DNA of 64,000 nucleotides from positions 2,005,001 to 2,069,000 of the forward strand of contig NZ_CP014264.1 in assembly GCF_001553685.1 (NCBI RefSeq), in the 5' to 3' direction. A model generated the notes under the pieces. It was not told where the DNA came from, did no database searches, and was given only the letters and a program-made list of their open reading frames with translations. Positions 2,847-8,623 of this stretch are shown one piece after another. Source of the stretch: Streptococcus sp. oral taxon 431 (lineage in GTDB: Bacteria > Bacillota > Bacilli > Lactobacillales > Streptococcaceae). The position numbers were made by a program, and so were the translations under genes. Numbering within the stretch: position 1 is the first letter of the stretch; each line of letters opens with the position of its first letter.

Positions 2847-2904
2847 CACTTTTTTGAAACTTTTTTTAATTTTTTTCATCTAGTGTTTCATCTGTAACAT
2901 ACTA

Positions 2905-2976
2905 TAGTCCGTACGGGATTCGAACCCGTGTTACCGCCGTGAAAAGGCGGTGTCTTAACCCCTTGACCAACGGACC
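2905..2976 (-). tRNA. tRNA-Glu (TTC anticodon)
   Basis: On minus, a 72-nt cloverleaf: acceptor GGTCCGT/ACGGACT (first pair G-U), anticodon loop TTTTCAC (anticodon TTC) and T-loop TTCGAAT. It lies between comX and the rrn promoter, in the same direction, and has its own promoter at 3002-3029. CCA is not encoded. Confidence 0.97.
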
Positions 2977-3001
2977 AGAGTTGTTATTTTCAACTCTTAC
3001 T

Positions 3002-3054: not shown

Positions 3055-3513
3055 CTACTGAATTACTTCCTGTAACTCTTTCAGCATGGCTTTGCGTCCC
3101 TTGAAACGCTCATCTGCCCAGAGGCGTTCATAGGCTTCTTGCTTATCTTGTGGTAACTTTCTTCTATAACTATCCAACAATTCATGAAGGGCGTAGTAAT
3201 CATCCAGCCACAATCCTCCTTCTGGTAGGCGATGGCTAATCTCGCCTACTTCTTCATAGGCCATACGGTCCAGGCGACGTTTTTGACTCTCTTGTTTTCT
3301 GACGCTATCTAGGATTCGATTGCGAAATTTTGTTTTGAAGTAGACGTAGAGCTTCTTTTCCTCTTCCACTAATTCTGGATGAGCCTCGAGGAGTTCATAG
3401 AGACAGATCAGTCCTTCTTGATCCCAATCCTCTTTTTCCCACAGGTGGAGATAATAATCTTTTCGGCATCTATGGACAATACCTTTTACTTTCTCATAAT
3501 ACTTTTCAAGCAT
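3055..3513 (-). CDS. comX: Competence-specific alternative sigma factor ComX (SigX)
   Basis: 152 residues. ComX directs RNA polymerase to cin-box promoters of the late competence genes (DNA uptake and recombination). Recognised by the ComX-like blocks YYLHLWEKEDWDQEGL, YFKTKFRNRILDSVRKQES and YEEVGEISHRLPEGGLWLDDYY. I chose the internal ATG at 3513 rather than the upstream in-frame start because GGGGGAAAG lies just before it and the longer N-terminus is unlike ComX. Length is close to the family's ~159. The neighbourhood (rpsD upstream; tRNA-Glu and rrn downstream, all on minus) matches the known habit of comX sitting beside rRNA operons. The -10 box and ribosome-binding site are embedded in a 19-bp perfect inverted repeat (separate entry). 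A ComE-type binding site was not confirmed. Confidence 0.93.
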   Translation of the reverse strand: MLEKYYEKVKGIVHRCRKDYYLHLWEKEDWDQEGLICLYELLEAHPELVEEEKKLYVYFKTKFRNRILDSVRKQESQKRRLDRMAYEEVGEISHRLPEGGLWLDDYYALHELLDSYRRKLPQDKQEAYERLWADERFKGRKAMLKELQEVIQ

Positions 3514-3516
3514 TTG

Positions 3517-3562
3517 CTTTCCCCCTTTCTCTGCTTGTAGTATAGCAGAGAAAGGGGGAAAG
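3517..3562 (-). promoter_or_regulatory. comX promoter/RBS inside a perfect 19-bp inverted repeat
   Basis: Arms CTTTCCCCCTTTCTCTGCT (3517-3535) and its exact complement (3544-3562) flank 8 bases. On minus, the -10 box TATACT is at 3539-3544, overlapping the loop and the first base of one arm. The downstream arm contains the GGGGG ribosome-binding site, three bases from the ATG. RNA started at this promoter would hold only one arm. RNA reading through from rpsD would hold both and could fold the RBS away. The repeat is seen directly; the role is inference. Confidence 0.7.
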
Positions 3563-3671
3563 AGGGGCTTTGATTTCTGTCTTGTGTTTTTTGAGTCTGT
3601 AATGTTATTGATTATAAGTTTGTAATTCACGTAAAGCTGGCTAGTTTTTCATAATCTAATTTTCAGACAAA

Positions 3672-3697
3672 GCAAAAAGCCCACTGTTGTAGGCTTT
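3672..3697 (-). terminator. Terminator after rpsD
   Basis: On minus, an 8-bp stem AAGCCTAC / GTGGGCTT (one G-U) with loop AACA followed by a T-rich tail. It lies 21-46 bases after the rpsD stop and before comX, so it separates a ribosomal-protein transcript from the competence sigma gene. Confidence 0.75.
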
Positions 3698-3717
3698 CTG
3701 TAAGATATATCTTAAAA

Positions 3718-4329
3718 TTAAAGCATTTTGTTGTAGAATTCAACGACAAGTGCTTCGTTAATTTCTGGGTTGATTTCATCGCGTTCTGGCAAACGAGTCA
3801 ATGAACCTTCCAATTTTTCAGCATCGAATGATACGAATGCTGGACGTCCAAGAGTAGCTTCTACTGCTTCAAGGATAGCTGGAACTTTCAATGATTTTTC
3901 ACGAACTGAGATCACTTGACCTGGAGTTACGCGATATGATGGAATATCAACGCGTTTTCCGTCAACAAGGATGTGACCGTGGTTTACGAATTGACGAGCT
4001 TGACGACGAGTAGTCGCAAGACCAAGACGGTAAACAACGTTATCCAAACGGCGTTCCAAAAGAAGCATGAAGTTGAAACCTAGGATTCCGCCTTTGATTT
4101 TTGTAGCTTGTACGAACAAGTTACGGAATTGTTTTTCACCTACACCGTAAGTGAAGCGAAGTTTTTGTTTTTCAGCCAATTGCAAACCGTATTCTGACAA
4201 TTTAGAACGGTTGTTTGGTCCGTGTTGTCCTGGTACGTAGTTACGACGTGCCAATTCTTTACCTGTACCTGTAAGTGAAAGGCCAAGGCGACGAGCTTGT
4301 TTCCAAGATGGTCCTGTATAACGTGACAT
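3718..4329 (-). CDS. rpsD: 30S ribosomal protein S4
   Basis: 203 residues, the usual length. S4 binds 16S rRNA early in 30S assembly and in many bacteria represses its own translation. N-terminal [19 protein letters not shown] and the S4 RNA-binding domain ([11 protein letters not shown] ... [19 protein letters not shown], about residues 92-135) are clear. A strong AGGAGG precedes the ATG. It is a single gene with its own promoter and terminator, upstream of comX on the same strand. Confidence 0.98.
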
Positions 4330-6394: not shown

Positions 6395-8623
6395 CTAGTC
6401 ATTTTCCTCTTTTTTAGCTTTCAAACTGAGGCCACCTAGTAGTCCGGCCAAGGCGAGTCCAAGGAAGCCAATAGGAGCCATTGATGGTTGGGCTTCACCA
6501 GTATATGGAAGCATGTCTTTTTGGTCTTTCATTTGATCAGCCATCATCGGATTTGACACCTTGTTATTAGATGCCATCTTGCCTTCATCAGGCATTTTGC
6601 TTGTGGCTGCTGGAACTTGATCTTGCTTCATACTTGGTGTTGCCATAGGCTGGCTAGCATTCATGGTTTTATCTTGCTCTTTATTAGGCATCATCTTATC
6701 CTGGCTAGTAGCTGGCATTTTAGATTTCATCTTAGACGTATCTTGATGACTACTCATCATTGGAGCCGGCATAGCTGAACCATTAGAAGATAGGACGGAA
6801 CCTGACTGCATCGGAACAAGAGACTGATGTCCATTCAAGTTCACTGTCAAATCTTTAGTCGCTACTAGGTTAGTCAAATCGGCCTTACCATCTTTAGCGC
6901 CGTACACTTTGATAGTAGCTTTATAGCTTTGAGTGCCGTTTTGTTTTAAGAGGTCAAGCAAGTCTTTGTCTGATTTACCTTGAGTGCCAGCCAAATCTAC
7001 TTCATAGAAGTAAAGACCTTTGCCCAATTTTTCTACTGGTGGAAGGGCGGGATTTTTGGCTGAACCGTTGTCTGACCATGGGGCCTTATCGGAGGCTTTC
7101 AAAATAAGACGAGTCAACATACCGTCACCAGCGAAGAATTCGTATGGAATAACTTGATTGACGCCAGCTGTAAATGGGCCTGGGAAGTTCGCTTTGTCCA
7201 AGTAAGTAGCTGGAACATCTATTGTGTCTTTAGTGTTGTCGGCTACGCCTTTTTGAACTTCAGCTGTTGTAGTCAAGCCGTTCAAGTTGATATCCAAATC
7301 CTTAGTCGCTACGAGATTTGTCAAATCGGCCTTACCATCCTTCGCACCGTACACTTTGATAGTTGCCTTGTAACTTTGAGTGCCGTTTTGTCTTAAGAAA
7401 TCAAGAAGTTCTTTGTCAGATTTTCCTTGAGTGCCGGCCAAATCCACTTCATAGAAGTAGAGGCCTTTGCCCAATTTCTCTACTGGTGGAAGGGCGGGAT
7501 TTTTAGCTGAACCATTGTCTGACCATGGGGCCTTGTCAGATGCTTTCAAAATGAGGCGGGTCAACATACCGTCACCTGCGAAGAATTCGTATGGAATGAC
7601 TTGATTGACACCGGCTGTGAATGGACCTGGGAAGTTGGCTTTGTCCAAGTAAGTGGCTGGGACGTCCACTGTGTCTTTAGTATTGTCAGCCACGCCTTTT
7701 TGCACTTCAGCTGGAGTGGTCAAGCCATTCAAGTTTACTGTCAAATCCTTAGTCGCTACAAGATTGCTCAAGTCTGCCTTACCATCTTTAGCGCCATACA
7801 CTTTGATAGTAGCTTTATAGCTTTGAGTGCCGTTTTGTTTTAAGAGGTCAAGTAGTTCTTTGTCTGATTTGCCTTGGGTACCTGCCAAATCTACTTCATA
7901 GAAGTAAAGGCCTTTGCCCAATTTTTCTACTGGTGGAAGGGCGGGATTCTTGGCTGAGCCGTTGTCTGACCATGGGGCCTTGTCTGAAGCTTTCAAGATA
8001 AGACGAGTCAACATGCCGTCTCCAGCGAAGAATTCATATGGAATGACTTGATTGACACCGGCTGTGAATGGGCCAGGGAAGTTGGCTTTGTCCAGGTAAG
8101 ATGCTGGAACGTCTACCGTATCTTTGGTATTGTCGGCTACGCCTTTTTGCACTTCAGCTGGAGTAGTTGCTGGTTGAGCTTCATTTGCTTCACGGTCTTG
8201 TCCAGAGACTACAGGAGCAGAATTTGTTGCAAGTTTAACCGCATCTTCTGTCTGTTTCTTAGATTCTGGCTTTGCTTGCACTTCTTCTTTTGGCGCTACT
8301 ACTTGCTCTTTATCAGCAACATCCACTTTTTCTGAAGAGCTTGTAGTATCCAAGCTTGCTTTAAATGTTGAGTCGGCCTGTTCTGAAGGAAGAGCTGTAT
8401 CAACTGCTTCTTTGAGTAGCTCTACTGGTAAATCGCTCTTTGCACTCACCGCATCTGCATCTGGCAAGACTTGAGTCGGGGTTGGATTGACCACATCGGC
8501 ACGTACTGAACTTGGTTGACCAACTAGAACAAAGAAGCCACTAGCCACAACAACTGAGGCAACACCGACACTAAGACGGCGGATAGACCAACGAGTATAT
8601 CTCTGATTTGGATTGAATTTCAT
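6395..8623 (-). CDS. pavB: PavB-like cell-wall adhesin with three SSURE repeats
   Basis: 742 residues. YSIRK-like signal peptide (RWSIRRLSVGV, about 12-45), a low-complexity region, three near-identical SSURE repeats of 149 residues (about 153-301, 302-450, 451-597), a methionine-rich stretch (about 600-700), and the sortase motif LPYTG at 705 with hydrophobic segment and KAKKEEND tail. SSURE domains bind fibronectin and plasminogen in the streptococcal family, and PavB aids colonisation. Pneumococcal PavB varies in repeat number; three is low. It follows RR08/HK08 in the known order, and its promoter has candidate binding sites for that regulator. The methionine-rich C-terminal spacer is unusual. 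The symbol is by homology. Confidence 0.9.
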   Translation of the reverse strand: MKFNPNQRYTRWSIRRLSVGVASVVVASGFFVLVGQPSSVRADVVNPTPTQVLPDADAVSAKSDLPVELLKEAVDTALPSEQADSTFKASLDTTSSSEKVDVADKEQVVAPKEEVQAKPESKKQTEDAVKLATNSAPVVSGQDREANEAQPATTPAEVQKGVADNTKDTVDVPASYLDKANFPGPFTAGVNQVIPYEFFAGDGMLTRLILKASDKAPWSDNGSAKNPALPPVEKLGKGLYFYEVDLAGTQGKSDKELLDLLKQNGTQSYKATIKVYGAKDGKADLSNLVATKDLTVNLNGLTTPAEVQKGVADNTKDTVDVPATYLDKANFPGPFTAGVNQVIPYEFFAGDGMLTRLILKASDKAPWSDNGSAKNPALPPVEKLGKGLYFYEVDLAGTQGKSDKELLDFLRQNGTQSYKATIKVYGAKDGKADLTNLVATKDLDINLNGLTTTAEVQKGVADNTKDTIDVPATYLDKANFPGPFTAGVNQVIPYEFFAGDGMLTRLILKASDKAPWSDNGSAKNPALPPVEKLGKGLYFYEVDLAGTQGKSDKDLLDLLKQNGTQSYKATIKVYGAKDGKADLTNLVATKDLTVNLNGHQSLVPMQSGSVLSSNGSAMPAPMMSSHQDTSKMKSKMPATSQDKMMPNKEQDKTMNASQPMATPSMKQDQVPAATSKMPDEGKMASNNKVSNPMMADQMKDQKDMLPYTGEAQPSMAPIGFLGLALAGLLGGLSLKAKKEEND

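Follow-up and report, generated by a model that had tools for sequence, protein, structure and literature searches.

The comX locus and its promoter

On the minus strand of the 64 kb stretch of Streptococcus sp. oral taxon 431 DNA analysed here (64,000 nucleotides, referred to as the window), rpsD, a hairpin, comX, a tRNA-Glu gene and a 16S gene, which is recognised from its sequence, follow one another in this order. The features of this region are listed in Table 1. The reading frame of comX is open from an upstream GTG, and the length of its product is counted from the ATG at 3513. ComX of the window matches the Sigma70_r2 and sigma70-ECF family models weakly and below the cut-off, matches none of the solved structures, and shares 64% identity with an S. 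oralis protein that is named ComX1. Besides three full copies of comX, the genome contains a 3' remnant of the gene, and all four adjoin a tRNA-Glu; pneumococcal comX1 and comX2 are also listed as paired with tRNA-Glu (PMC6560143 Table 2). The full copies are located behind rpsD (the window), nusG (L003) and a PBP2A gene (L001), and a terminator-like hairpin precedes each of them. The remnant, which consists of about 26 codons (L004 1501-1578; G000:C1:63738-63815) and adjoins another tRNA-Glu, suggests that a fourth copy may have been lost. Elsewhere in the window, the minus strand encodes, at 6395-8623, a surface protein that has a YSIRK signal and three long repeats of nearly identical sequence; its N-terminus resembles the PavB family, below the cut-off.

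Table 1. Coordinates of the features at the comX locus, in positions of the window
Feature	Position	Strand	Basis or remark
tRNA-Glu, downstream of comX	2904-2977	-	
comX (sigX), 152 aa, competence sigma factor	3055-3513	-	ORF, homology, context
Downstream arm of the repeat	3517-3535	-	Holds the SD; predicted 5' end of comX own mRNA
Shine-Dalgarno (SD) AGAAAGGGGG, 10 bases	3521-3530	-	7 bases before ATG
Predicted transcription start	3531-3533	-	From -10 spacing and the published ComE rule
Loop of the repeat, 8 bases	3536-3543	-	Sequence
Extended -10, TGC-TATACT	3539-3547	-	Sequence
Upstream arm of the repeat	3544-3562	-	Outside comX own mRNA if the start is at 3531-3533
ComE-box right repeat ACAAGACAG (candidate)	3577-3585	-	32 bases before the -10
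ComE-box left repeat ACATTACAG (candidate)	3597-3605	-	11 bases from the right repeat; 8/9 consensus
rpsD intrinsic terminator-like hairpin	3673-3700	-	Terminator scan
rpsD, ribosomal protein S4	3718-4329	-	ORF, family match

A perfect inverted repeat lies between rpsD and comX. The first-pass annotation of this DNA described its arms as exact 19-mers separated by 8 bases, with the -10 sequence overlapping the loop and the ribosome-binding site in the downstream arm. The sequence bears out this description: five bases of TATACT (3544-3539) are in the loop and one is in the upstream arm, and the SD stretch is read at 3530-3521. The extended -10, the predicted start site and the entire SD of comX are therefore all inside the repeat, while the AUG itself is outside the stem because the downstream arm stops 3 bases short of the ATG. 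When loops of 3-50 bases are allowed, 3517-3562 is the longest perfect inverted repeat of the window, and the arms of the runner-up are 13 bases long. The longest arms found in 60 first-order Markov sequences of equal length are 9-16 bases, as compared with the 19 bases observed. The identical perfect repeat is present in two of the three full comX copies, and that of the L001 copy contains one G-U pair and one bulged base. A search of Rfam gives 24 matches to the repeat region, none of which reaches the gathering score; they are mostly eukaryotic microRNA hairpins, as would be expected of a long stem.

The comX promoter of the window has a candidate ComE box at the expected spacing and is likely activated by ComE, as judged from its sequence. 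The right repeat fits only five of the nine consensus positions and was placed by using the published sigX spacing, and a candidate at ACAGAAATC, 27 bases from the -10, was dropped in its favour. As tabulated for sigX of S. pneumoniae and S. mitis, the right repeat and the -10 are 31 or 32 bases apart and the two ComE repeats are 12 bases apart, and the pneumococcal right repeat likewise fits five of nine positions (PMC6001120 Table 2). In all 25 intact sequences of the repeat-bearing comX clade described below, the -10 is retained as TATACT or TAAACT and the right repeat (ACAAGAYAG or ACAAAACAG) is located 32 bases from it. The left repeat scores 6-8/9 in 24 of these 25 sequences, and the remaining one, L010, is cut by a contig end. 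The two ComE repeats are separated by an A-rich spacer (3586-3596 in the window, and its counterpart in L089, L090 and L092) of 10, 11 or 12 bases in the rpsD-side copies, and the length of this homopolymer might alter the ComE response between strains. A rule reported for ComE-dependent promoters, in which the right motif is followed by N42 to N44 and the transcription start site (PMC6560143), gives 3533-3531 here. Thus, the own mRNA of comX should start inside the downstream arm with the full SD, because of the spacing of the -10 and the ComE box.

The genome also encodes ComE, which matches PDB 4cbv (COME; E 3.6e-132), a comC product that scores over the NCBIfam cut-off, and, beside comC and comE, a comD-like kinase of 439 aa, which is AgrC-like and below the cut-off. 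The comC gene (L152 2154-2288), which adjoins the kinase gene and comE, encodes a competence pheromone precursor of 44 aa that has a GG leader. In the 552 bases searched near comC, three short 9-base inverted repeats are the only ones present, and none frames a promoter.

Distribution and conservation of the repeat

An 85-base query gives matches in 14 of 284 Streptococcus genomes, including G133, which is matched by 21 bases only, at a contig end. The repeat-bearing loci are those of S. taonis, S. sp. oral taxon 431 and two HMSC strains, and loci under some S. infantis and some S. pseudopneumoniae titles also bear it. Species names are no guide to its distribution, because other S. infantis and S. 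pseudopneumoniae records are without the repeat. The clade was tabulated from those copies for which the contig extends to the comX ATG and includes the searched start motif, so that copies at contig ends (e.g., G028:C7, G127:C34 and C92, G241:C151 and C161, and G133:C97) are uncounted. The stem is kept in 25 of 26 distinct clade upstream sequences and is perfect in 14 of them, while the other 11 of the 25 intact sequences are not perfect palindromes. These 25 sequences represent 24 non-redundant ones, because L010, which is cut, matches L104 and L115 over its length. The exception, L021, has lost the entire repeat together with the promoter. This locus is a comX copy located behind nusG in S. 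infantis UC6950A, and its -10 is deleted with the repeat; two other copies, L012 and L019, in the same assembly keep the repeat.

The first-pass annotation proposed to compare the repeat across relatives, and the outcome differs between the clade and its sister groups. In the 70-base stretch that precedes comX, the longest perfect arms measure 10-19 bases in the 25 intact clade sequences and 4 bases in L021, as compared with 4-7 bases in the sisters, which are represented by 32 distinct sequences, namely 9 infantis-type, 16 oralis-type and 7 mitis/pneumo-type ones. An exact TCTGC/GCAGA pair around the -10 is present in five of the nine infantis-type, one of the 16 oralis-type and none of the seven mitis/pneumo-type sequences. 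It may be that the long stem arose once, by fold-back copying from such a short repeat. In 15 of the 16 distinct oralis-type sequences, arms of 6-7 bases frame the -10. The short oralis-type repeat that does so in L037-L041, L043, L075, L078 and L080-L085, GCATTT/AAATGC, is unrelated in sequence to the arms of the window. The arms are only 4-7 bases long in sisters whose comX follows PBP2A, nusG or an ftsH-like gene.

The repeat is retained in L024 and L060, in which rpsD and comX are set apart by foreign sequence. About 200-400 bases upstream of comX in these two loci, only the last bases of rpsD remain and the sequence beyond them differs, as if an element had integrated at the 3' end of rpsD.

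The upstream arm has no known promoter role, and its variation was compared with that of third codon positions (codon 3) in sets of 21 clade, 16 oralis-type and 10 infantis-type distinct sequences of at least 49 codons each, with L021 left out of the diversity and pair counts. The diversity of this arm in the clade is 0.028 as compared with 0.248 at codon 3 (ratio 0.113, site bootstrap 0.000-0.272). At the same 19 positions, it is 0.164 as compared with 0.243 in the oralis-type set (ratio 0.676, bootstrap 0.300-1.144) and 0.396 as compared with 0.277 in the infantis-type set (ratio 1.433, bootstrap 0.937-2.066). Relative to codon 3, the number of Fitch changes per site is 0.20 in the clade (6 changes over 19 sites, as compared with 78 over 49 codon-3 sites), 1.08 in the oralis-type and 1.64 in the infantis-type set, on a tree that is approximate because of gene exchange among copies and strains. 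Thus, the upstream arm is 5-9 times less variable than codon 3, and diversity at these 19 positions is 6-14 times higher in the two sister groups. The 31 bases immediately upstream of the repeat, which include the ComE box, have a diversity of 0.174 in the 25 sequences. The repeat is specific to the clade and looks to be under selection there, because the upstream arm barely varies while the same bases are diverse in the sisters.

Among the 475 pair cells of the 25 clade sequences, 463 are Watson-Crick, 7 are G-U and 5 are broken or gapped. Both arms are conserved and their changes are one-sided. Those of the upstream arm are limited to positions 6-8, directly opposite the G-run of the SD. The pair formed by upstream position 7 and downstream position 13 is changed on either side in different sequences and is broken each time. 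The compensatory changes for which the first-pass annotation proposed to search were looked for, and none of the 25 clade sequences has both sides of a pair changed; therefore, nothing in this variation demonstrates RNA pairing as such.

Predicted folding of the comX leader and a translational fail-safe

The first-pass annotation also proposed to fold the minus-strand RNA of 3500-3700, and the fold agrees with its expectation, in that the SD is predicted to be buried in read-through RNA and nearly free to open in the own RNA of comX. With the own start set 6 bases after the -10, the predicted cost of opening the SD of the window copy is 1.1 kcal/mol in the own RNA and 20.4 kcal/mol in the read-through RNA. 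The corresponding costs are 0.0-1.1 and 7.9-20.4 kcal/mol in all 25 intact clade sequences, with L109 having the weakest read-through stem (down to 7.9 kcal/mol). In 31 sister loci, from which duplicate upstream sequences and those with identity outside 60-80% are left out, they are 0.0-4.3 and 0.4-7.0 kcal/mol, respectively. The SD of the window copy is never free in the read-through RNA (probability of being unpaired, 0.000 at three RNA lengths), and weak pairing with the coding sequence keeps this probability at just 0.18 in the own RNA of 103 nt. For the AUG, the read-through RNA (0.36-0.56) offers no lower accessibility than the own RNA (0.37). The fold of the 193-nt RNA of 3480-3672 has a z-score of -5.36, and none of 200 shuffled sequences is as stable. 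On the plus strand, a sigma-70-like promoter match (10/12) is located at 3473-3500, antisense within the 5' coding region of comX, and RNA from this candidate promoter would fold the repeat too.

These properties are best explained by a translational fail-safe on comX, which we consider somewhat favoured as the function of the repeat. Transcription driven by ComE~P would start within the repeat, so that the competence mRNA would carry only the SD-bearing arm and would be translated. RNA entering from upstream would carry both arms, which would form the 19-bp stem and bury the SD, so that little or no ComX would be made from the read-through RNA. Nearly every comX copy of the clade would be protected in this manner, whatever its upstream gene. 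In this explanation, we infer the start site, the read-through RNA, the block of translation and the selection for this block.

The first-pass annotation suggested that the repeat may silence read-through RNA because a competence sigma factor behind a highly expressed ribosomal gene needs such protection. The silencing part is consistent with the predicted geometry, in the window and in all 25 relatives, and with the conservation of the upstream arm, but the rpsD rationale is rejected, since the repeat is also present behind nusG and PBP2A, both in this genome and in relatives. The wider idea that comX has to be protected wherever it follows a housekeeping gene is weakened as well, since sisters with comX behind PBP2A, nusG or the ftsH-like gene are without the stem. 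The proposed fail-safe would belong to this clade of comX genes rather than to the surroundings of rpsD.

Leaders of comparable design are present in other systems. In IS10 and IS50, the terminal repeat in read-through RNA hides the start of the transposase gene, while the element's own promoter is located inside. No transposon is seen at comX, and the gene that carries the repeat here is a regulatory gene of the host. The predicted comX stem also resembles those of the T4 gene e, soc, 49 and I-TevI leaders, in which a stem of long upstream transcripts hides the ribosome-binding site (PMC3014915, PMC2988022). For gene e, the yield of lysozyme from the long early transcripts is reported to be lower by about 100-fold, whereas the transcripts of late promoters a short distance upstream are without the 5' strand of the stem and are translated (PMC3014915). 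Likewise, a short I-TevI transcript from a nearby promoter is described as lacking the 5' strand of the stem and being translated (PMC2988022). The T4 examples are phage genes with a phage late promoter, whereas the repeat here is on a chromosomal sigma factor gene in three copies, with a promoter that is likely ComE-activated and a stem of 19 bp. The comX repeat would work like gene e and I-TevI if our reading is right, and nothing suggests common descent. The pvuIIR gene provides a caution, because disruption of its predicted hairpins hiding the ribosome-binding site is reported to have had no significant effect, although the hairpin energy quoted there (-4.6 kcal/mol) is far weaker than that of the comX stem (PMC2997769).

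The comX genes of S. pneumoniae and S. mitis share the ComE box, the spacing of 31-32 bases and the tRNA-Glu with the window, as far as these are given in PMC6001120 and PMC6560143, and their -10 is tabulated as TAGACT or TAAACT (PMC6001120 Table 2). They differ in that the longest perfect arms are 4-6 bases in the seven mitis/pneumo-type loci examined. Among the matches listed in the open-licence literature, no title or beginning of an abstract mentions an SD-hiding stem or a promoter within a stem at comX, which is weak evidence of absence. The hiding of a ribosome-binding site by a stem that contains the promoter is well known from phage T4 and, as far as found, is not described for such a gene.

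Alternative explanations and significance

The repeat may instead act at the DNA level, with the palindrome over the -10 and the start serving as an operator for a dimeric regulator or forming a cruciform that loops out the -10, either of which would alter promoter firing. The arms frame the -10 almost symmetrically and the 46-nt single DNA strand of the repeat folds fully (-21.4 kcal/mol, z -10.3), but 46 bp is long for one dimer. The conserved upstream arm suits an operator equally well, but the 11 imperfect palindromes, none of which has a change in one arm mirrored in the opposite arm, do not. The short repeats that frame the -10 in sisters also agree with DNA-level control, but their half-sites, which overlap the extended -10 and the SD, may be there by coincidence. 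In mutans, bovis, pyogenic and salivarius streptococci, ComR is described to bind an inverted-repeat operator, the ComR box, upstream of comX (PMC4072589). However, the core of this box, GACA-N4-TGTC, is located about 20 bases before the -10 (PMC4072589), while the repeat of the window frames the -10, includes the SD and is without this core in 3517-3562. With these points on both sides, control at the DNA level seems unlikely.

It is also possible that the repeat is a relic of a single fold-back copying (template-switch) event and that its upstream arm is functionless, in which case the palindrome would persist because the promoter and the SD lie inside it. This origin agrees with the short seed repeat in some sisters, with the fact that none of the 32 distinct sister sequences has arms longer than 7 bases, and with the loss of the entire repeat together with the promoter in L021. 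Palindromes tend to be lost. However, a functionless upstream arm should drift like the spacers of the sisters, which is at variance with the Fitch ratios given above. Conversion between the arms would copy changes across, which is seen in no sequence, and a recent sweep of 46 bp fits poorly with the varied flanks. We therefore regard a functionless relic as quite improbable.

Cleavage of the 19-bp stem by RNase III in the read-through RNA, by which long transcripts would be destroyed or processed, would have an outcome near that of the fail-safe, but a stem of this length is at the short end for RNase III, and we give this explanation very little weight. A terminator or attenuator for rpsD is hardly credible and is rejected, since this hairpin, although strong and downstream of rpsD, has no T-run directly after the stem on either strand and is missing from the terminator scan of the window, which lists an ordinary terminator at 3700-3673 instead.

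The fail-safe thus remains the explanation that we prefer. In its fuller form, in which the clade evolved a selected fail-safe, perhaps by one fold-back event on the seed repeat, and ComX is translatable only from its own ComE-driven promoter, we hold it to be evenly balanced between right and wrong. ComX switches on the uptake of DNA and should be silent unless cells are competent. If the fail-safe is real, a master switch would be insulated in a simple way, by a leader that distinguishes the transcript of its own promoter from stray ones, and this leader would provide a host-gene counterpart of the T4 lysozyme hairpin, on comX behind rpsD, nusG and PBP2A alike. It would also show a route from a long palindrome to a regulatory part, and the restriction of the repeat to one clade, with close sisters without it, provides a natural comparison.
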